A stretch of DNA of 21,474 nt from a virus, in the IMG/VR virus record IMGVR_UViG_3300027801_000191, positions 1-21,474 of that record; one strand, written 5' to 3'. How positions within the stretch are numbered: the first letter of the stretch is position 1; every line of letters starts with the position of its first letter. Under the pieces are notes generated by a model. It searched no databases. It was given only the letters and a program-made list of their open reading frames with translations, and was not told where the DNA came from. A program made the translations under genes and the position numbers. Of this stretch, positions 1,851-13,032 are shown one piece after another.

Positions 1851-2190
1851 ATTAGATGACGATACAACAGTGTGGGTACGACAAGCATCCGGTATGGAAA
1901 AATTAGCCATATCAAATATACAAGCAAGGGTATATAGAAAGTTTGTTACAAGTCACGGGGAAACAGACAAGTGGGGAGATGGAGTAGGATTAGATTTTTC
2001 TGCGGCTATGGATGAAGAAGGTGCTGGAATACAAGCACAAATAGACCAATGGTTAGTTAACTGTCTTTTACCGGAAGAAGGAAAAGATGTTTTTAACCCA
2101 AATTATTTTACTATTGAAGAATTAATGCCTATACTTGGTTTTGTCCGAGGTGACGACGAAGAAGGTGCAGTTAATTTTTTGAGTTCGTGA
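1825..2190 (+). CDS. Tail assembly chaperone, zero-frame product (gpG-like)
   Basis: This 121-residue protein starts at a GTG preceded by the purine-rich AGGAAGTGGAAGA. The opening ('KKKEFKLDDDTTVWVRQASG') is the usual start of tail assembly chaperones, which bind the tape measure protein and guide tube polymerisation around it, like lambda gpG. It lies immediately before the tape measure gene. The C-terminal half is acidic and ends '...EGAVNFLSS' at a TGA at 2188-2190. A slippery T TTT TTG at 2175-2181 and a hairpin at 2188-2204 at its end should divert some ribosomes into the -1 frame to make the longer gpGT-like form. The family is inferred from context, the acidic profile and the frameshift architecture rather than from a decisive motif. 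Confidence 0.7.
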   Translation: MPVKKKEFKLDDDTTVWVRQASGMEKLAISNIQARVYRKFVTSHGETDKWGDGVGLDFSAAMDEEGAGIQAQIDQWLVNCLLPEEGKDVFNPNYFTIEELMPILGFVRGDDEEGAVNFLSS

Positions 2191-2204
2191 GGGTCGCACC
2201 CTCA
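2175..2204 (+). promoter_or_regulatory. Programmed -1 ribosomal frameshift signal
   Basis: The slippery heptamer T TTT TTG (2175-2181) is in the correct zero-frame phase. It fits X XXY YYZ and lets both tRNAs re-pair in the -1 frame. A spacer of 6 nt (2182-2187) follows. Then comes the hairpin TGAGGGT-CGC-ACCCTCA (2188-2204): 7 perfect pairs with a 3-nt loop, extendable by a G-U pair. The zero-frame TGA is the first base triplet of the stem. The layout is a textbook stimulated slippery site placed between the two halves of a tail assembly chaperone. Confidence 0.8.
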
Positions 2205-2514: not shown

Positions 2515-5500
2515 ATGTTATTAATATCTGAAATACTTATACCGTATATGCCTATTATATTAGGTTTAATGGGAGTACTAATGACAGTACTCCGAACAGG
2601 TGCTTCACAAGTTGTCTTCGACGTTGTAGGTAGATTTCAAGCAGGTCGTTTAATTAAAGACGCTAAAACTCAAATGACTGTGTTTAATTCTTTGCTAGTA
2701 GATGGTTTAGGTATGGTGCAAGAAGCAGGGCAAGAAATGGCAGATGTTATGGATGCTTATATAGATTCTGTATTACCTAGTACTATAGCAATAGCAGACG
2801 CTACAATTGAATTACAAAAATTCGTAGCAGAAGGTGAAAATTTTGAAGAATTAAAAGAACAAGTAATGGAGATAGGTGCTAGTTTTGGTTATACGGGGGA
2901 CCAAGCACTTATGGCCGCATCTAAAATGGCACAGTTATCTTCTGTGTTAGGACAAGGACAAACCGCAGTAGGCGCACAATTAGGTTTTGAGTTCGGATTA
3001 ATAAGTGGTATGGAAACAGATAAAGCCATGCAAAGATTAGTAAATTTAAATCAACAGATTAAATTTATGACTAAAGGTACTACTGCTTTAATGAGCGAAG
3101 AAGAAAAAGGGCTTCATATAAGACAGAATACTTTAAGAGTATTAGACCAATTAAATACTGTGGAGAATAGGTCTGCGGCTACAATGGAACAAGTTACTTT
3201 TGTCATGAATCAATTCGCATCACAGGCTAATCTTACAGGAGAAAGTATATCGTTTATGGCGGCGCAATCAGCAGTTCTTATAGAGGCTGGTGAAGAACAA
3301 GGTAAAGGAGGTAGGGCACTAAAGGCTATATATGCTAGATTAGGGGCTGATACTTCCGGTGCGGCTACTGCTTTACAAGATTTAGGTATTGCTACCCATG
3401 ATGCATCGGGGGGATTAAGACCACTTTCTGATATTTTAGGTCAGTTAAATGAAGTATGGCCGGAAATGAATAGAGGGCAACAACAGAATATTACACAATT
3501 AATTGCTGGTAACAGACACTATACTAGATTAATCAAATTAATTGAAGGTTACGATAGAATGTTGCAGTTACAACATGAAGGTGAGATGGCTTTAATGCCT
3601 GCTCTAGAAGAAGTTAATATTAGATTAGACAGTAATATAAATAAATATAGAGAAGCAGAAGCACAATTATCAAATTACCAAGCAGAATTAGGAGATGCTT
3701 TGCTACCTACTTTAACTAAAGTTACAGAAAAGCAAGCATTATTTACTGCTTCTTTATCAGGTTTTGTTGAAGCAGGTGGTATGATTACTCCTGCTATTTT
3801 TGGTATAGGTAAAGCATTTCAAATGATAGGTGGCCCTTTATTTAACACTTTTATGATGTTTAGAAGTTTAGAAGTAGCAAGCGGTACTTTAGCCAGTATA
3901 ACTAGGGCTTTACAAGGGGAAGAAATAATATTGGCTACTGCTTATGGTAAAGGTGGAGCGGCGTTAGTAGATTATAGCAATAAATTAGGACAATTAAATG
4001 TGGTAAGGACTAATGAAATTAGAAGCGTAAGAAAGTCTTATGAAGGAATTAAAGACATTACCCATAGGCAACTGGAAAAGAATAGAAAATTAATAAAATC
4101 GGAATTATCAATGCAAAAGAAAAGAGATGTATTAGATAAAAAAGGTCAGCACAGGATTGCTATGGCAGAAAGAGAAATAAGCACAATGAGAAGTAAAGTA
4201 TTAGAAGCAAAGAAAGACAAAGCAAGTGTTGCAGAACTAAAAATAGTAGAAGATAACTATACTGAAACTATTGAGAGACAAAGTTTAGTTATAGAGGACA
4301 GTCAAAGAGCAATTAAAGGGAGAGCAAGAGCAAACGCAAAAAGTTTTAACACTACTAAAAAGTTAGGCAACGAAAACGCTAAGTTATTAAATAATGCCGC
4401 CGACCGTAGGGAAGCGATGGATAGAAAAGAAAGTGATAGATTGGCTCGCCAAGCCCAAAATTATATGAAATTTGCTGGGGGTGTTACTGCCGCAGGTGGG
4501 GCAATAATGATGTTAGCCCGAAATGAAGAGCAAATGCAAGTAGGTATGGCGTTGTCTACGGCAGGTATAGTATTCATGACAGCCGCACAAGTAAAAAATA
4601 CAGTAGCGGCAGGATTCTCTATGGTCGCTACTAAATTAAAAGATATACAATTAAAAAAACATATACTAACAACAATTGCGGCTTCTAAGGCTAGTTACGC
4701 TCACATGAGGGCTACACACGCAGAGACAGGAGCAATTGCCGCATCAACTCTTGTTATAAAGAAAAATACTACTGCTTTAGCAACGTGGATGGGTGCGGGA
4801 GTAGGAAAGACATTTGTCAAGAAAGCGGCGTTTTGGACAGCATGGGCGGCGGCGGTAGTTTCAAGTATTGCTCTAGTTAATATGGGTAGTAAAAAACTGC
4901 TTGAGCAACGTAAAAAACTGTCAGAAGGTTTACGTAACGACGTAGTAGACATAGAGTTAATAGGTAACGGTGCTGTAGACATACAAAAATTTAGAGAAAT
5001 GACTCTTGATGACACTATAAGCACAGTAGATATGCAGGGTTTAATGGCTCATCAACTAAAGACTATTAAAATGTATGAAAATGATATTACGGCTGATGGT
5101 AAACAACAACTAAATGATGCTAGAGATTTATATGCTACTTATAAAGATGTGCTTACAGTAAAACAACAAGAAGCATTCTTAGCGATAGATACTACTGACG
5201 CTAACAAAGACAATTTAGAACTTATGTTTGACACAATTGATGCCGTAAGAGAATATGAAAAACAATATGAAGGTACTATTGGGGCCATAAAGGAAATGGG
5301 GAATGCTTTTAGTTGGAATATGCAAAATACACCAGCAAAAGAGTTTCAAGCATTTGTAGATATTTTTGATGACTTAGCGGAGAAAGAACCAGCGATGGGA
5401 AGTTTAATTCAAGCCTTATTAAGTGGGGAGTTAGGTGACGTAGATAGTGTTCTTGATTTAGAGGCTTGGAAAAGCGGTCGTGCGGTTACTCCTTTACTTG

Positions 5501-5790
5501 ACAGTGCTATGATGGTAACAGATACTTGGCAAACTGCTACAGCAAGTTTAGTAGAATTTGCTAATGCTAGAGAAGAGTTATTTTATGGTATGAATGCCAA
5601 CAACATAACCGGAGATTTAATAAGACAAGTTAAACAAACAGGTGTTGAAAATTTAATAGCAAACACAGAAGTAGTAATGACAAATAATTTTAATGGTATG
5701 ACTACAAGAGAAGTAGCAAACGAAATATTAAGACAGATTAGTGATGGTGCTAGTGGCATAGGGGTAAATATTAATGCCAGTAGTATATAA
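2515..5790 (+). CDS. Tape measure protein (TP901 family)
   Basis: This 1091-residue protein sets tail length and is threaded inside the tail tube, and is often released on infection. The first 400 residues carry the TP901 tape-measure signature: 'KGGRALKAIYARLGADTSG' near residue 264, then 'LRPLSDILGQLNEVW', then 'AGNRHYTRLIKLIEGYDRM' near 331. Residues about 500-650 are charged and helical, suited to a coiled coil. Hydrophobic segments lie near 652-668, 676-695 and 772-792 ('FWTAWAAAVVSSIALVNMG') and could insert in the host membrane. The ATG at 2515 has an SD-like GGTGGAG shortly upstream. An ATG four bases earlier, in another frame, stops after six codons. If the usual rule of about 1.5 angstrom per residue holds, the tail is roughly 160 nm long. 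Confidence 0.9.
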   Translation: MLLISEILIPYMPIILGLMGVLMTVLRTGASQVVFDVVGRFQAGRLIKDAKTQMTVFNSLLVDGLGMVQEAGQEMADVMDAYIDSVLPSTIAIADATIELQKFVAEGENFEELKEQVMEIGASFGYTGDQALMAASKMAQLSSVLGQGQTAVGAQLGFEFGLISGMETDKAMQRLVNLNQQIKFMTKGTTALMSEEEKGLHIRQNTLRVLDQLNTVENRSAATMEQVTFVMNQFASQANLTGESISFMAAQSAVLIEAGEEQGKGGRALKAIYARLGADTSGAATALQDLGIATHDASGGLRPLSDILGQLNEVWPEMNRGQQQNITQLIAGNRHYTRLIKLIEGYDRMLQLQHEGEMALMPALEEVNIRLDSNINKYREAEAQLSNYQAELGDALLPTLTKVTEKQALFTASLSGFVEAGGMITPAIFGIGKAFQMIGGPLFNTFMMFRSLEVASGTLASITRALQGEEIILATAYGKGGAALVDYSNKLGQLNVVRTNEIRSVRKSYEGIKDITHRQLEKNRKLIKSELSMQKKRDVLDKKGQHRIAMAEREISTMRSKVLEAKKDKASVAELKIVEDNYTETIERQSLVIEDSQRAIKGRARANAKSFNTTKKLGNENAKLLNNAADRREAMDRKESDRLARQAQNYMKFAGGVTAAGGAIMMLARNEEQMQVGMALSTAGIVFMTAAQVKNTVAAGFSMVATKLKDIQLKKHILTTIAASKASYAHMRATHAETGAIAASTLVIKKNTTALATWMGAGVGKTFVKKAAFWTAWAAAVVSSIALVNMGSKKLLEQRKKLSEGLRNDVVDIELIGNGAVDIQKFREMTLDDTISTVDMQGLMAHQLKTIKMYENDITADGKQQLNDARDLYATYKDVLTVKQQEAFLAIDTTDANKDNLELMFDTIDAVREYEKQYEGTIGAIKEMGNAFSWNMQNTPAKEFQAFVDIFDDLAEKEPAMGSLIQALLSGELGDVDSVLDLEAWKSGRAVTPLLDSAMMVTDTWQTATASLVEFANAREELFYGMNANNITGDLIRQVKQTGVENLIANTEVVMTNNFNGMTTREVANEILRQISDGASGIGVNINASSI

Positions 5791-5808: not shown

Positions 5809-8800
5809 ATGGTTAGACCAGTAACAAGTAAATACGGATTTTGGTTAGCAGGATACTATGATGATTTCATGGGTGCTAGAGCCATCCCCGATGATTCTAA
5901 TAGCCCAAGTATAGAAAATACTTATGATTCAAAAACTGCTCATCATGGTAATATTTTAAACGGGGAGGCTAATCTAAATCCTAGATTTAGATGGTCTATA
6001 GTAGATAGGGAAAGAATAGGTAGTGTTTTAATTAGTACTGCTCTTAATAGATATCTTAAAAATAGAGGCAGTTATGAATTTGTTGGTAATGATACCATTA
6101 GACAAAACCATAGTAAATATGAAGGAACTGCTCAATTACAATATCCTGATGGTCATACTAATGCTAATAGAATTAAATTTGCTAATGGTACCGATACTGG
6201 CATAAGCGGTACTAATATTAATGGTTATCAATTATTTTGTAATGGTTATGATACTACTAATAAATATTTAGTACCTACAGGAACCACTGATGCTTCTTAT
6301 GGTAGAACTGATATGGAAGCATATTATACTAGTGCTGGTACTTTTAGTAATACAAAGTATGCAAACAAAATTGCTGGTACTTTTGCTAACGGTGCAGTTA
6401 GGAGTACTACTAGACAAACATCTTTTGCTAATTTAGCAGGAGTTTGGGAAGGGGAAGCGTTTGCTTTTACTGCTAGTGATACACCTACTAATTTATTTCA
6501 CCCAGTTAAATCCCCAAGCGGTAAACCTTTTTTAGTTATACAAACTACTTCTAGCGCACCTAGTAGTAACCCTACTATAGCATACGACGGTACTTTAAAT
6601 AGCAAATTAGATGGAGATATATTTACGGTAAGACTTTGTGTTAGGTCTTTTAGTGGACATAGTGTTACCGCAGGCAAAGAGCCACAAATTGTTTTTAATA
6701 TAGGTTATGCGGCTACTAATTTAACTAGTAGTTTAGGATTTACTACTACTCCCGCTATCAGTTATACTTGGAGGCCCGCTAGTCATCCTGCTGGTACAAG
6801 AGCATATACGTATGATTATTTTGGTGCTAGTTTTATAGGTACTGGTAGTAACACAAATATAGTGAACGATGATTGCTGGCTTGATTTTGATTTTGTAATG
6901 GATTATACTAATAGGAAATACAATGTTTATTGTGATGGTGAATTAATAGGTGATACTGAAAGTATGAACGGTACACCTACTGCTGAAAGTATGTATGGTT
7001 GGTCTATGAGTTTAGATGCTACTTACACTAAATCTTCTCAATATCTTATGTTAGATAGAGTAGGTTTAGTAAGACCATTAACTGACCATGTAAAGGATAC
7101 AGAAAAACTAACAGGTTCTCCTGTAACTGATTTAAGTATGAATTTACCTAATAATGGATTTAGTAATTGTAAAATTACAATTTTTGATGATGCTAACGAT
7201 ACAGATAATGACAACGTTTACGGAGAATTAGACGCTGATTACGCCCATAATAAATTAACTACTTTATTCAATACTGATAGTATAAGTAATTGGGAATTAT
7301 TAATTTTTGCTGATGTAGAAGTTAATAGAATAGATAGACCTATATGGAGAGGTATTGTTAAAAACTTTGAAATAGATGAATCAATAAGAAGTGGAAGAAA
7401 ACTAGCAATATCAGCAGAGGATAGAACTAGTTTATTAGATAAACAAATACCTGTTTGGGATATAGGGCAGGCTTCTTTGTCTACTACATATGGTTCTGAA
7501 ACCCCTTATTGGTTAAGTGAAACAGAAGGATATAAACATTTAATGAATTTTGGTTCTGAACCTCTTAAATTAACACAGAATAGTATTGGTTTTAATTCCA
7601 ATAAGTATTTAGAAGAGGCGCAACAAAGAACACAATTGTATAGTGGTATTCCTATACAAATGTATAATAACGAAGAAGTAGATTTTGGTCCTAACGAAGC
7701 CCATAAAGGGTGGGAAGGAATTAATATAGTTGGTTTTGGTAAAACAGTACGGGGCACTTATTTAGGTGATGGTAACTCTGATGTAAAAAGTTTTGTTGCT
7801 ATATCTGCTCCTAATAGTACTACCGAGTATGTTCAAAACAGTACCACACAAAAAATTAAAAATACTACTAACCCTAATTATAATAATAACACGATTACTT
7901 TACAAAATAAAGTAGATGTACCATCTAGTAACAGAGTAAGATACAATGAAGATACTGATACTAAACAAATTTTGTGGTATAATGGGTTAACTTATGAACC
8001 TGAAACTGCTAAAATAATATTAATTACAAATTATAGTGGGGCAATATTTCATACGTCTGCTGGTACTACTTATCAACAATGGATATCTTTTAATGTTTGG
8101 CAACCACACGTCAATAATTTAAAGACTGAACACACTAGTTTTTATATGGATGCAGACCCCGATTTAAATTTAGGTGATTATATATATGTTAATCATATGC
8201 ATGATAATTATAGTGATAAAACCACAAGTAAAATGCTTCATCCCTCAGTAAGAGGTAAACAGAAAGTAGTAAATGTAAAAAAAATACATAATTACTTTGT
8301 TGCTAGTAACGCTTTTACTTTTCAAACTAATTTTTTATGGGTAGTTACTACAGATAGACCATATACTGAAAACGGTAAAGGTGATTATGTCAATAGTACT
8401 TTGTTAAGTGGTAATTCTAGGTTTTCTTGGAGTAAAGACGTACAAGGTACTATCACACCTGCTAGTACTAATCATGCACTAACTAAATATAGAAATTTAC
8501 ATACTCAATGGATGACAGATTTACCTAAGTCATTGTGGTTTCAATATAGATATGGTCAAATCAGGGAAACTGCTTTTGGGAGTTGTGTACTACAAGCGTC
8601 AGTAGCAGTTAACGATAATAAAGTTAAAATAACTCAAGATTTATATAATACTTTAAACGCCGCTTCTGCTAAAAAACGAAGTGGGTGTGCAGAAATAGTT
8701 ACTAGTGGTACATCACAAGTTTATTCTTATGTTAAATTTATATATAAATATTTAATAGTAGATGGTAGTAATTATTATCTTGGGGGAACTTCTGATTTTC

Positions 8801-11800
8801 TTAACGTACCTATTACTATAGGTGGAGGTAAAACCGCAACAGTAAATATATGTGATATATCAGATGACTATAAACATTTATGGTTGTTATGGGCTGACAT
8901 GAGAAATAACGGCCAAGCCAATGCTGATGGTGGTCACAGAAAAACAAGTTTTGGTTTAACATCCCCTGTATATAAAAATTATAACCCTACTTTATATTAT
9001 TCAGACCAATTTGATATAGAAGGTAATGTAGATAAATTTACTGATTTAAAAATAGGTAAAGATATAATTATAGAAGAAGTAAATCCTGTTTCCGATTACT
9101 CTACTACTATTCCAATGTCAAAACCTATAGATTACCAAAACCCTATTAGTGCTAGTAGTTTGTCTGAAAACTCTACGGGCGATACTAAATTAAAAGTAAC
9201 TAAAACTAGTCATGGTCTTAACCTAAACGATTATGTATATTTATTTAATACTGATAGACATGATGGTTATTATCAAATAAAAAGTAAAGATACTAATACT
9301 TTTACCTTTAAAGCAGGTACTTTTATAGCAGGAGCGACGGATGACGGGCAAGCAGGGGGTATAAAATATGCAATAACAACAGGTTCAGATAAAGAAATTG
9401 ATATAAAATATCACGATTGGGAAAATAAAGCAGGGGCATTTATAGTAATAGATTCTTCACCTTTCTTTAACCTTAATACTTATATTAATGGTGGTAGAGT
9501 AGGACAAGTAGCAGGAGGAAATACAAATCTAGTAGATTATGAAACTAGTGTAAAAGGGTTTCCTGCTTTACTAGATAATTATTATTCTGAGGCTATAGCA
9601 AAAGATAGTAATAGTGGAGATGAATTTAGTCAACACAAAAACCAAAACAGAATAATTAGTGAGTCTACTACTTTAAGTAATAGTATCCAAATAGGAGATG
9701 TTGGGATAATAGTAGAAGATTTAAGTATTTTTGGTAATAGTGGGATGGGGAGAATAATTGCTAGAGAAAAAGATGACGGTAGTACTGTAAGTAGCGATAA
9801 AGATTTTTACTTTACTTGGAGTTCTAAGAAAAATCTTAGTACAGCACAGGATGGAGTAAGCACTACACCTGCTAATGGGGCATTAGTAGATGTAGTGAAA
9901 CAGAATGGAACTACAGATTCCAGTGGGAACGCCGACAATGTTGGTATTATGACAGGTACAGTTATACCTGTTGGAATGAGTGAAATTTTATCTGCCGATA
10001 TAGGACAAGATACAAATGGAACTAGTTTGGATGCTACTTTATTAGATTTTAATATACAAGCCGGTATGTTAATTTACAGAAAAAATAATGCCGGTACAGT
10101 TTTAAGTAAAGAAAAAGTAGTTTTAGTTAAAGAATATACAGTAGGTGGAGCAACATATCAAAATAGAATGTTAGTAACTGGTCTTTGGACGGCCGGTCTT
10201 GGTGGAAGTAATAATGATAGATGGGAAATACCACCACAATTAGGGGGTATTATTACTGTAGTTAATTCATTAGATGACCCACTTGATTCTGCTACTGGTA
10301 GTAGTCATGGTTTAGAAAACAGTATACATAGATATATAGATAATAACGCTTTACCTTTAGGCTCTACAGAAGATGTTGCATTAACAACAACTGACGAAAA
10401 AGATAAATATTCTTTTATTACAGTAAGTTCTACTGTAAGTAATCAATATGCATTAAGAATATTAATGCATTTAGAAGGAACAACAAAATCATTAGGGGGT
10501 AATACTTATTATGACCATGATAAATTTAGGGCATTATGGTTAGCGTCTTTAATATCTAATTGGAGAGCGCCTATTAAATTACCTTTAATGTATGATATTA
10601 ATAACATACCTATAACATATAATATGAGTAGTGATGGTACTGTAAATAATACGGATGATTACGGTTCTATGTTTAACGCTAATTCTAAAAATTTATTAGA
10701 TGTAACAAAAGGAATAACTAAATTAAGTGGGTTTGGTAATATTAATAATTACCATACTACTTTTTCTTGGTTAGCAGGAAGAGATGGTAGGTTGTCATAC
10801 AGACCTAAATACAATAGTGGAGTTAATTTTGATAGATTAAACGCACAACGAAGTAAATTTAGTAGTAACGTAAAAGGTAAAATTAGTAATGTTAGATTGT
10901 TTTATGACAAAAGTAAATCTTTTGTAGATTTCCCTGCTACTAACCTTAATGATTCTACCAATTGGAAAATAATACAACACCCGGAAATAACTACATCAGA
11001 TGAAGCACTAAAAATGGCACAACAAGAATATAACACAAACAAATCTTCTAAAATAACTATTAATATAACTCCTAGACAAGATAGTTATGAAGAAGATAGT
11101 GTTATCGTAAATGTAGTAGACAAAATGGTACACACAGGTAGATATGGTTATATCGCTGACCCATATATAGCATTTCATGGTAATGATGATTTAGGTAACG
11201 CTTCTGATTTAATGTATTGGACTAGATTAGGTACAGGCGGAGCATTATTTACGGGGGCGCAGAGTGGGTTAGATGGTAATATGGGTAATATCCCTGCTGA
11301 TATTTATAATAGATATGGACAAACAAAATACTCTCAAGCAAATACTAGCGCTACTGATATAGGTTGGGAAAATAATTTTTATTGGTACGGTGCTAAGAGT
11401 CTTAGTTACGCAGTACAAATAGTAGATGTTACTAATAGATGTCCTTTAGTTAGTGAAAAAACAGGACAAGAAATGAGAATGTTTGTGGCTATTAAGCCTA
11501 ATCAAACAGGAGTTAGTATTGATGATTTAATATTTACTGTTTACATGGTAGATTACGCTTATTCTACTAATAAAAATAGAACTACTCTTGATTTAGCAAG
11601 TAGTACTACTTATACTACTGGAACTGCTAGTGACCACATTGGGTCAATAGATGTAAAAGGTAATGGTTTTTATGAAATGCCTATACCTAAATCTTATTGG
11701 TCAAAAGACGGAGGAACTAGTATTTCAGGAGGTAAAATAATAATCTCTGTAAATACTGAATACTGTAGGGCTTTATTAAGACATAGATGTGGCGACCCTA

Positions 11801-13032
11801 CTAACGCAATTATTGTTCAAAATAGTAACTCTCTACAAAATATTAACATAAGCGCCGATGGTAGTGGTGGAAATTATAATGCTTCTAGTATATTTCCTTT
11901 AGGGGGTAAAATATTTACTGAGTGGGATATGTTCTCTGCCCCACGTAACGAATATTATGCCCCAAGAATACATATATGTAAAGATATAAAATACCAACCT
12001 GCTACATACGTAACTTATACTGACAAATCTCTAGACCTAAATCAAAAAGTTATGTCAATAGAAAAAATAGATTGGAAAGTAAGCCAACGTGGTGAAGACT
12101 TAAATTTAATATTGACTAGTGATGAATCAACAAGTAGTGATATAGTGCTTGCTAATTTATTTAGTAAGGCTAATAATCCTGTATTCCAACCACCTCCACC
12201 GGCCCCTACACAAACTATATCTATAGAAAACGATACTAGTGATGATGCGATTGAACCCGATAATAATGTAGGTGGGCAAGACAATGATGATGGAGTAGGG
12301 TCGCCCGCACCACCAAATCTTAAACCTCCCGTTCTTGAACCTGTAGGTTCGTTTGGGTTTAATGTTAACCAAGAAAATAATATTAATAGTATGTCATCTA
12401 CTACTTATGGTAACATGACTAATAGAATAGGTCTTGGTGACGATAATAATAGTTTTAGTGAATTCTCTATCTTAGGACAAACAAGACCTAGTACTATACC
12501 TAGTAGTATTAGAGGTATAGATGCACAAGTAGAGTTTAATCCAACCGGAGGTACTGCTATTAAAACAAGTAATGGTATATCATTCCCCGGAGTAGGGGTA
12601 ATAGAAGGAGAGGGGTTAGCCGACACCCCTGTTAATATTACTACTGCTTCTTTAAAGATAAAAATACCTAATGATGTAAAAACTAATGAGGTAAATATAA
12701 ACACCCAAATTACTCATGCCGCAAATCAAGCAAGTAGTAACGTAGCAGAATTAATTGTAACTGTTACTTGTGACCAAACATCTAACTCTAAATCTAAAAA
12801 CACACTTGTGTATTCAAACTATGTAAATAATAATCTATCATTATTTTCTAATAAAATTTTGGGGGCTAACGTAGGAGGTAATACTTTAACCGTAGAAATA
12901 AAAAGAGTAGCAGGTTCTACTAACGATAGTTCAGATTACAATTCAGTAATATTACAAGACACACAAGTAAGATTAAATAGAGTAGCCGGTCATTCTTCTG
13001 CTGATACTAATAACTTTACTACTTACTCTTGA
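5809..13032 (+). CDS. Giant tail-tip / hub and receptor-binding protein
   Basis: This 2407-residue protein starts 18 nt after the tape measure gene. Because no other tail gene follows before the module ends, it probably combines distal-tail, hub and host-contact roles. Residues about 205-430 look like a LamG/concanavalin-type beta sandwich ('DYTNRKYNVYCDGELIG'). Residues about 435-560 resemble phage hub (gp27/late-control D) domains ('IWRGIVKNFEIDE', 'RKLAISAEDRTSLLDKQIP'). Near 1130-1170 is the common tail domain motif 'SHGLNLNDYVYLF...GYYQI...TFTF'. Near 1631-1669 a second hub-like part reads 'TFSWLAGRDGRLSYRPKYN'. A proline linker (PPPPAP near 2127, then another proline-rich stretch near 2165) leads to a Ser/Thr/Asn-rich C-terminal domain of about 230 residues, the likely receptor-binding tip. 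There is no obvious peptidase or lysozyme motif. Domain limits are approximate. Confidence 0.75.
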   Translation: MVRPVTSKYGFWLAGYYDDFMGARAIPDDSNSPSIENTYDSKTAHHGNILNGEANLNPRFRWSIVDRERIGSVLISTALNRYLKNRGSYEFVGNDTIRQNHSKYEGTAQLQYPDGHTNANRIKFANGTDTGISGTNINGYQLFCNGYDTTNKYLVPTGTTDASYGRTDMEAYYTSAGTFSNTKYANKIAGTFANGAVRSTTRQTSFANLAGVWEGEAFAFTASDTPTNLFHPVKSPSGKPFLVIQTTSSAPSSNPTIAYDGTLNSKLDGDIFTVRLCVRSFSGHSVTAGKEPQIVFNIGYAATNLTSSLGFTTTPAISYTWRPASHPAGTRAYTYDYFGASFIGTGSNTNIVNDDCWLDFDFVMDYTNRKYNVYCDGELIGDTESMNGTPTAESMYGWSMSLDATYTKSSQYLMLDRVGLVRPLTDHVKDTEKLTGSPVTDLSMNLPNNGFSNCKITIFDDANDTDNDNVYGELDADYAHNKLTTLFNTDSISNWELLIFADVEVNRIDRPIWRGIVKNFEIDESIRSGRKLAISAEDRTSLLDKQIPVWDIGQASLSTTYGSETPYWLSETEGYKHLMNFGSEPLKLTQNSIGFNSNKYLEEAQQRTQLYSGIPIQMYNNEEVDFGPNEAHKGWEGINIVGFGKTVRGTYLGDGNSDVKSFVAISAPNSTTEYVQNSTTQKIKNTTNPNYNNNTITLQNKVDVPSSNRVRYNEDTDTKQILWYNGLTYEPETAKIILITNYSGAIFHTSAGTTYQQWISFNVWQPHVNNLKTEHTSFYMDADPDLNLGDYIYVNHMHDNYSDKTTSKMLHPSVRGKQKVVNVKKIHNYFVASNAFTFQTNFLWVVTTDRPYTENGKGDYVNSTLLSGNSRFSWSKDVQGTITPASTNHALTKYRNLHTQWMTDLPKSLWFQYRYGQIRETAFGSCVLQASVAVNDNKVKITQDLYNTLNAASAKKRSGCAEIVTSGTSQVYSYVKFIYKYLIVDGSNYYLGGTSDFLNVPITIGGGKTATVNICDISDDYKHLWLLWADMRNNGQANADGGHRKTSFGLTSPVYKNYNPTLYYSDQFDIEGNVDKFTDLKIGKDIIIEEVNPVSDYSTTIPMSKPIDYQNPISASSLSENSTGDTKLKVTKTSHGLNLNDYVYLFNTDRHDGYYQIKSKDTNTFTFKAGTFIAGATDDGQAGGIKYAITTGSDKEIDIKYHDWENKAGAFIVIDSSPFFNLNTYINGGRVGQVAGGNTNLVDYETSVKGFPALLDNYYSEAIAKDSNSGDEFSQHKNQNRIISESTTLSNSIQIGDVGIIVEDLSIFGNSGMGRIIAREKDDGSTVSSDKDFYFTWSSKKNLSTAQDGVSTTPANGALVDVVKQNGTTDSSGNADNVGIMTGTVIPVGMSEILSADIGQDTNGTSLDATLLDFNIQAGMLIYRKNNAGTVLSKEKVVLVKEYTVGGATYQNRMLVTGLWTAGLGGSNNDRWEIPPQLGGIITVVNSLDDPLDSATGSSHGLENSIHRYIDNNALPLGSTEDVALTTTDEKDKYSFITVSSTVSNQYALRILMHLEGTTKSLGGNTYYDHDKFRALWLASLISNWRAPIKLPLMYDINNIPITYNMSSDGTVNNTDDYGSMFNANSKNLLDVTKGITKLSGFGNINNYHTTFSWLAGRDGRLSYRPKYNSGVNFDRLNAQRSKFSSNVKGKISNVRLFYDKSKSFVDFPATNLNDSTNWKIIQHPEITTSDEALKMAQQEYNTNKSSKITINITPRQDSYEEDSVIVNVVDKMVHTGRYGYIADPYIAFHGNDDLGNASDLMYWTRLGTGGALFTGAQSGLDGNMGNIPADIYNRYGQTKYSQANTSATDIGWENNFYWYGAKSLSYAVQIVDVTNRCPLVSEKTGQEMRMFVAIKPNQTGVSIDDLIFTVYMVDYAYSTNKNRTTLDLASSTTYTTGTASDHIGSIDVKGNGFYEMPIPKSYWSKDGGTSISGGKIIISVNTEYCRALLRHRCGDPTNAIIVQNSNSLQNINISADGSGGNYNASSIFPLGGKIFTEWDMFSAPRNEYYAPRIHICKDIKYQPATYVTYTDKSLDLNQKVMSIEKIDWKVSQRGEDLNLILTSDESTSSDIVLANLFSKANNPVFQPPPPAPTQTISIENDTSDDAIEPDNNVGGQDNDDGVGSPAPPNLKPPVLEPVGSFGFNVNQENNINSMSSTTYGNMTNRIGLGDDNNSFSEFSILGQTRPSTIPSSIRGIDAQVEFNPTGGTAIKTSNGISFPGVGVIEGEGLADTPVNITTASLKIKIPNDVKTNEVNINTQITHAANQASSNVAELIVTVTCDQTSNSKSKNTLVYSNYVNNNLSLFSNKILGANVGGNTLTVEIKRVAGSTNDSSDYNSVILQDTQVRLNRVAGHSSADTNNFTTYS

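Follow-up and report, generated by a model that had tools for sequence, protein, structure and literature searches.

The window analysed here, a 21-kb (21,474 nt) IMG/VR virus fragment (IMGVR_UViG_3300027801_000191), carries what is very probably a G/GT-type tail assembly chaperone gene with its recoding site, at which a programmed −1 frameshift would join two overlapping reading frames, G and T, into a single predicted fusion protein (GT). We place the probability of this reading at roughly 0.9, on the strength of gene order, a predicted fold and the comparison of 84 related G/T pairs. In the following paragraphs we discuss the site, its relatives and the alternatives.

The order of the genes, as established by Pfam and PHROG profile matches, is tail tube, G, T and tape measure, all of them on the plus strand. 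The major tail tube protein (positions 227–1438) matches PF18906 (Phage_tube_2) above the cut-off at 1.4e-13 and PHROG 290 at 2.8e-13, while the tail tape measure protein (2515–5790) matches PF10145 (8.5e-16) and the PHROG tape measure families (to 1.7e-20). The G/T pair lies directly 5′ of the tape measure gene and 3′ of the tail tube gene, the same place that is occupied by the G/GT genes of phage λ. G (1825–2190, +) specifies a zero-frame product of 121 amino acids, begins with GTG and is preceded by a Shine-Dalgarno (SD)-like duplex of −8.0 kcal/mol. A 56-codon ORF (1680–1850, +), beginning with ATG at 1680 and putatively coding, overlaps the start of G in another frame.

Sequence families barely recognise G, the match to PHROG 344 (tail assembly chaperone) having an E value of 0.064 with one member of 31; scans of G and T against PHROGs and Pfam gave only weak matches or none. 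G was also modelled with AlphaFold (pLDDT 85.5). The best PDB match of this model by Foldseek is 2ob9, the tail assembly chaperone of HK97 (probability 0.92, with a weak E value of 0.098; TM-score 0.44–0.49, 10% identity), and its named BFVD matches include several tail assembly chaperones and one “pre-tape measure frameshift protein G.”

The slippery heptamer T TTT TTG (2175–2181, +) is read in the frame of G, the terminal codons of which are AAT TTT TTG AGT TCG TGA. The −1 frame is closed just 5′ of this site by TAA (2172–2174), opens exactly at 2175, and remains open for 94 codons, counted from 2181, as far as the TAG at 2463–2465 (T; 2175–2465, +). In both respects the first-pass annotation of this DNA had been correct, and the 213-residue gpGT-like fusion that it proposed, join(1825..2181,2181..2465) on the plus strand with 119 + 94 residues, agrees with the gene order, the predicted fold and the 84 pairs. 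The predicted junction peptides are GDDEEGAVNFLEFVR for a tandem slip and GDDEEGAVNFFEFVR for a slip in the P site. The spacer AGTTCG (2182–2187, +) is followed by a hairpin (2187–2205, +) with the loop CGC and seven Watson-Crick pairs (2188–2194/2198–2204), the stem of which begins, as had been claimed, at the zero-frame stop: TGA (2188–2190) makes up the first three bases of the TGAGGGT arm. The earlier description of a perfect 7-bp stem with a 3-nt loop and a 6-nt spacer holds as read, but an 8-bp stem with a 5-nt spacer describes the site equally well, because an eighth pair, G2187-U2205, extends the stem; we therefore give the spacer as 5–6 nt. The site combines an in-phase X XXY YYZ, a spacer within 5–9 nt and a 3′ structure, which are the elements of a −1 cassette. 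When the plus strand is shuffled, 0.7% of sites have an in-phase heptamer, approximately 0.036 being expected for so short an overlap, and 0.3% have a perfect 7-bp hairpin 5–9 nt to the 3′ side, so that the pair is unusual even before relatives are considered. Among the in-phase heptamers listed for plus-strand ORFs (12 of 18 in the case of the largest ORF), none other than that at 2175–2181 has a hairpin of this kind.

Relatives were gathered from public viral contigs by searches with the fusion, the tail tube protein and alignments of T and G; the tape measure protein as query recovered none. This yielded 84 distinct G/T pairs, T being at −1 of G in 83 of them and at +1 in one (L020). We define groups A to E here by slip site and by distance to the stop codon of G. 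Group A, the window's clade, has T TTT TTG at a distance of 6 nt from the stop (10 members including the window); group B has NNN CCT or CAT TTT 9–12 nt before it (27 members); groups C and D both have C CCT TTR, abutting the stop in the former (15 members) and 15 nt before it in the latter (22 members); and group E comprises other sites (9 members).

Judged from these alignments, the slip site is conserved by rule and not by letters. Slippage on two tRNAs requires identity between XX and the base preceding XXY. With TTG or TTA as second codon, XXX is intact in 56 of 56 pairs (TTTTTTG or CCCTTTG/A) and, once sequences are clustered at 80% identity, in 28 of 28, whereas with TTT in that place it is intact in just 16 of 27 (Fisher p 8e-7 unclustered and 0.002 clustered; the sequences are related and these values overstate their independence, which makes 0.002 the safer figure). 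This base closes a codon for Val, Ile, Leu, Pro, Ala or Asn; in the remainder of those G genes only 11–12% of Val and Ile codons end in C. Four contigs checked after the rule was formed (L244–L247) also fit it. L067 and L068 read GTC CCT TTT TTG, in which both CCCTTTT and TTTTTTG are present, and thereby connect these two forms.

The first-pass annotation had suggested that conservation of the heptamer in homologous contigs be examined, and that homologs lacking it while keeping both frames would tell against frameshifting. T TTT TTG is invariant in the 10 distinct members of the window's clade. Literal loss with both frames kept is found in 11 of the 27 group B relatives, which are distant and lack a full XXXYYYZ, but never with TTG or TTA as the second codon. 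All 11 end their second slip codon in T and retain T_TTT, a sequence that would allow a single tRNA-Phe to slip by itself; since this is so, and since no TTG/TTA member breaks the rule, they would represent relaxed site types rather than a refutation. In group B relatives such as L107, L123 and L037 (7365–7395), T_TTT alone stands in place of XXXYYYZ, and most sites of this kind have TAATG or TGATG at the stop of G; a single-tRNA slip, or a mixture of slippage and reinitiation, is possible there.

The inverted repeat TGAGGGT CGC ACCCTCA (2188–2204), perfect over 7 bp, folds together with the further G-U pair as an RNA hairpin of −11.0 kcal/mol (z −3.8 versus shuffles). Its stem is invariant in the ten distinct group A sequences save for one closing pair in L005, with 98.6% of cells paired, and the eighth pair, at 2187/2205, is G-U in the window and G-C in the nine other clade members. 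The stem codons GTG, AGG, CCC and TCA are unchanged in 10 of 10 although each has four to six synonyms, whereas the loop codons vary (three and two codons used) and synonymous variation is seen at 23 of the 26 other invariant residues; the probability of such a freeze is approximately 0.001. Because the stem is frozen amid this variation, we conclude from codon usage that it is under RNA-level constraint in the window's clade. Compensatory changes in the stem, a check that had been proposed earlier, were sought in group A and none were found; with an invariant stem, covariation is uninformative.

It may be that frameshifting is real and that the hairpin is not its stimulator, being conserved for some other purpose such as translation of T, mRNA stability or the binding of a protein. 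Relatives beyond the clade do keep the slip site without the window's hairpin, and the want of compensatory changes fits this explanation as well. We nevertheless consider it rather unlikely, given that a position 5–6 nt 3′ of the heptamer is canonical for a stimulator, that the fold is stronger than that of shuffled sequence, and that synonymous sites are frozen in the stem and free in the loop across the 10 distinct sequences. Loss of the stem with both frames kept, also named beforehand as evidence against the cassette, holds for every group but A and fails within group A; the hairpin would thus be a clade-specific stimulator at most, being frozen in its own clade and absent from more distant groups. 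A search for a shared 3′ hairpin in groups other than A revealed no consistent fold; individual 3′ folds with z < −2 were found in L046–L048, L216 and L205. Just after the G stop of L046–L048 an 8-bp hairpin with z −2.2 to −2.8, CGCCTTTG...CAAAGGCG, spans the start of T and is possibly a different stimulator in that subgroup. On the 5′ side of the slip site, an SD-like stretch (2159–2168, +) is a weak candidate for an internal stimulator. Its anti-SD duplex energy is −6.8 in the window and −10.0 as the clade median, the background having a median of −2.95 and a 5th percentile of −7.2. This stretch exceeds background in most groups, and its strength may be explained by the conserved coding of DEEG.

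That T is made as a protein of its own is in our judgement very improbable, whether GTG 2187 served for termination-reinitiation (translational coupling) or ATG 2211 for internal initiation. The GTG overlaps the stop of G as GTGA in all 10 clade members, and TAATG or TGATG is found at the G stop in 24 of the 27 group B relatives; reinitiation could add some free T in these two groups. GTG 2187 is, however, without an SD-like sequence (−1.5 kcal/mol, compared with −8.0 for the start of G and −7.3 for that of the tape measure gene), and the duplex upstream of ATG 2211 (−6.1) appears to come from the GAGGG of the hairpin some 17 nt away. This ATG is missing in L085, L107 and L123, the last two being the relatives that lack both XXX and ATG. 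Between the slip site and M13 there is no start codon in any group C member nor in 12 of the 22 in group D, the remaining 10 having only a TTG two codons before M13. The residues of T that lie 5′ of every usable start are conserved (F1, L11 and C12 invariant; F4, V7 and A8 at least 90%), and reinitiation leaves the slip-site rule, with its 56 of 56, unexplained. Independent initiation at GTG 2187, which the first-pass annotation had named as grounds for abandoning the fusion, is accordingly opposed by the missing SD-like sequence, the conserved pre-start residues and the rule. From the slip site to M13, 110 of 119 differences in group A and 1306 of 1408 in group B fall at third positions of the −1 frame; within the overlap itself a frame-by-frame comparison is underpowered, the substitutions being too few to separate the two frames statistically. 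As a second ORF, T is without initiation signals of its own, overlaps the end of G, and stands at −1 in 83 of 84 pairs and at +1 in one.

Slippage of RNA polymerase on the run of six Ts would generate a mixed mRNA pool, from which the T frame is read without any ribosomal shift. The T6 homopolymer of the window's clade favours this, but most relatives have CCCTTTG or CCCTTTA at that point, with no homopolymer beyond a few bases, and we give the idea little credence. An error of assembly or sequencing, or a decaying gene, has nothing in its favour as the source of the frame change beyond that change itself, and is scarcely credible when many metagenomes have yielded 83 distinct sequences of the same architecture, with the protein conserved in both frames.

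The sequence elements and their conservation, the order of the genes and the predicted fold are direct results of this analysis; that ribosomes slip here, how efficiently they do so, what the hairpin contributes and how the products act in tail assembly we infer, with programmed −1 frameshifting as the preferred reading. Most ribosomes would translate G (121 aa) and terminate at 2188–2190. A minority would pause as the hairpin meets the mRNA entrance, perhaps also because of the SD-like stretch 5′ of the site, and would slip back one base with tRNA-Phe and tRNA-Leu on TTT TTG; the tRNAs would re-pair with TTT TTT and reading would continue in the −1 frame to 2465, giving the 213-residue GT. 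By analogy with λ, G and a few copies of GT might then form a coat around the tape measure protein and bring in the subunit of the tail tube.

The single +1 relative, L020 (IMGVR_UViG_3300025110_000229, 5690–5720), reads GTA TCC TTT CGT TGA with T in the +1 frame. TCC TTT CGT has the same letters as the +1 site of influenza A PA-X (UCC_UUU_CGU), which is not the window's own mechanism, and TTT-CGC is described at the same gene position in HF1-group haloviruses (PMC7230728). The junction protein of L020, SFVEFLQVAPALCMAFKG, aligns with NFFEFVRVAPSLCMAFKG. This type of site was found in a single contig only, and a one-base error in L020 is therefore possible. It is conceivable, at somewhat less than even odds, that within one family of marine archaeal virus chaperones the signal has changed in kind, comprising tandem −1 slippage (T TTT TTG or C CCT TTR), a reduced site for a single tRNA (T_TTT) and, in L020, a switch to +1 (TCC_TTT_CGT_TGA), while the fused protein has stayed the same through the junction.

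The host of this marine tailed virus is likely archaeal, and a member of the Poseidoniales is plausible; the candidate assignments considered were the order Magrovirales and other viruses of Poseidoniales. Among named records, the window's PolB finds its best matches in haloarchaeal tailed viruses (E to 6e-42), and PolB is present in all ten large relatives searched (47–85% identity). The window also carries a Hef-like ERCC4-HHH nuclease, which matches the Hef model at 5.7e-18 though below the cut-off, and its structural and replication modules are opposed, an arrangement described for magroviruses (PMC12999244). A primase-like and a clamp-like ORF were not confirmed by PDB sequence search, and for that reason the case for the host is made from PolB, the Hef-like nuclease and the gene layout. 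The chaperonin family is matched in five of ten large relatives; the two examples examined (L219 and L220, for relatives L117 and L035) are GroEL-type group I chaperonin genes, and GroEL-type chaperonins have been reported for marine group II (MGII) virus clades 2–4 (PMC5332604). Searches of prokaryote genome contigs for G or T returned no relatives and yielded no direct link to a host, and named phage records likewise gave no relative of the tail tube protein or the fusion.

Frameshifted tail chaperones are standard in long-tailed phages (PMC5009743, PMC8211752, PMC7911831), the λ G/GT frameshift and its relatives in long-tailed dsDNA phages having been described by Xu, Hendrix and Duda in 2004, as cited in PMC5009743 and PMC7911831. 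The window differs from λ in showing no recognisable sequence similarity to its G/GT, and the slip sites of its family are TTTTTTG and CCCTTTN. For haloarchaeal tailed viruses, −1 and +1 tail chaperone frameshifts have already been predicted, among them HCTV-1 (G_GGA_AAC), HCTV-2 (A_AAA_AAC), HCTV-5 (G_GGA_AAG), Hardycor1 (G GGA AAT), HSTV-2 (+1) and HVTV-1 (PMC5009743, PMC8211752, PMC7911831). These cases resemble ours in belonging to archaeal tailed viruses, in gene position and in the X XXY YYZ logic, and the window's PolB has its closest named relatives in some of these viruses; the present family differs in its slip letters (a U-run in the second slip codon), in lineage and in the comparative support of 84 pairs. 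A literature search combining magrovirus and frameshift found “frameshift” only within a reference list. New here are the lineage, the letters at the slip site, the two-site rule and a candidate switch to +1. According to a 2021 review, fucA1 of Saccharolobus solfataricus was the only experimentally supported archaeal −1 frameshift, and the archaeal-virus cases were predictions from a few haloviruses (PMC8211752). With 84 pairs that follow one clear rule at the slip site, candidate stimulators confined to particular clades and a single relative at +1, the family would offer a panel for measuring frameshifting by archaeal ribosomes, and the tail gene annotation of many uncultured marine viruses would be corrected.

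Two further features accompany the tape measure gene. On its 3′ side lies an ORF of 2407 residues (5809–13032, +), which found no match in a PHROG search and is probably a tail or receptor-binding protein. In its leader (2486–2495, +) a small hairpin, ACC-GTAA-GGT, is located just 5′ of the SD-like GGTGGAG; relatives have GCC-GTAA-GGC, GCC-GTAC-GGC, GCC-ATAT-GGC or GCC-GCAT-GGC, from which it follows that the stem pairs change together while the loop varies.
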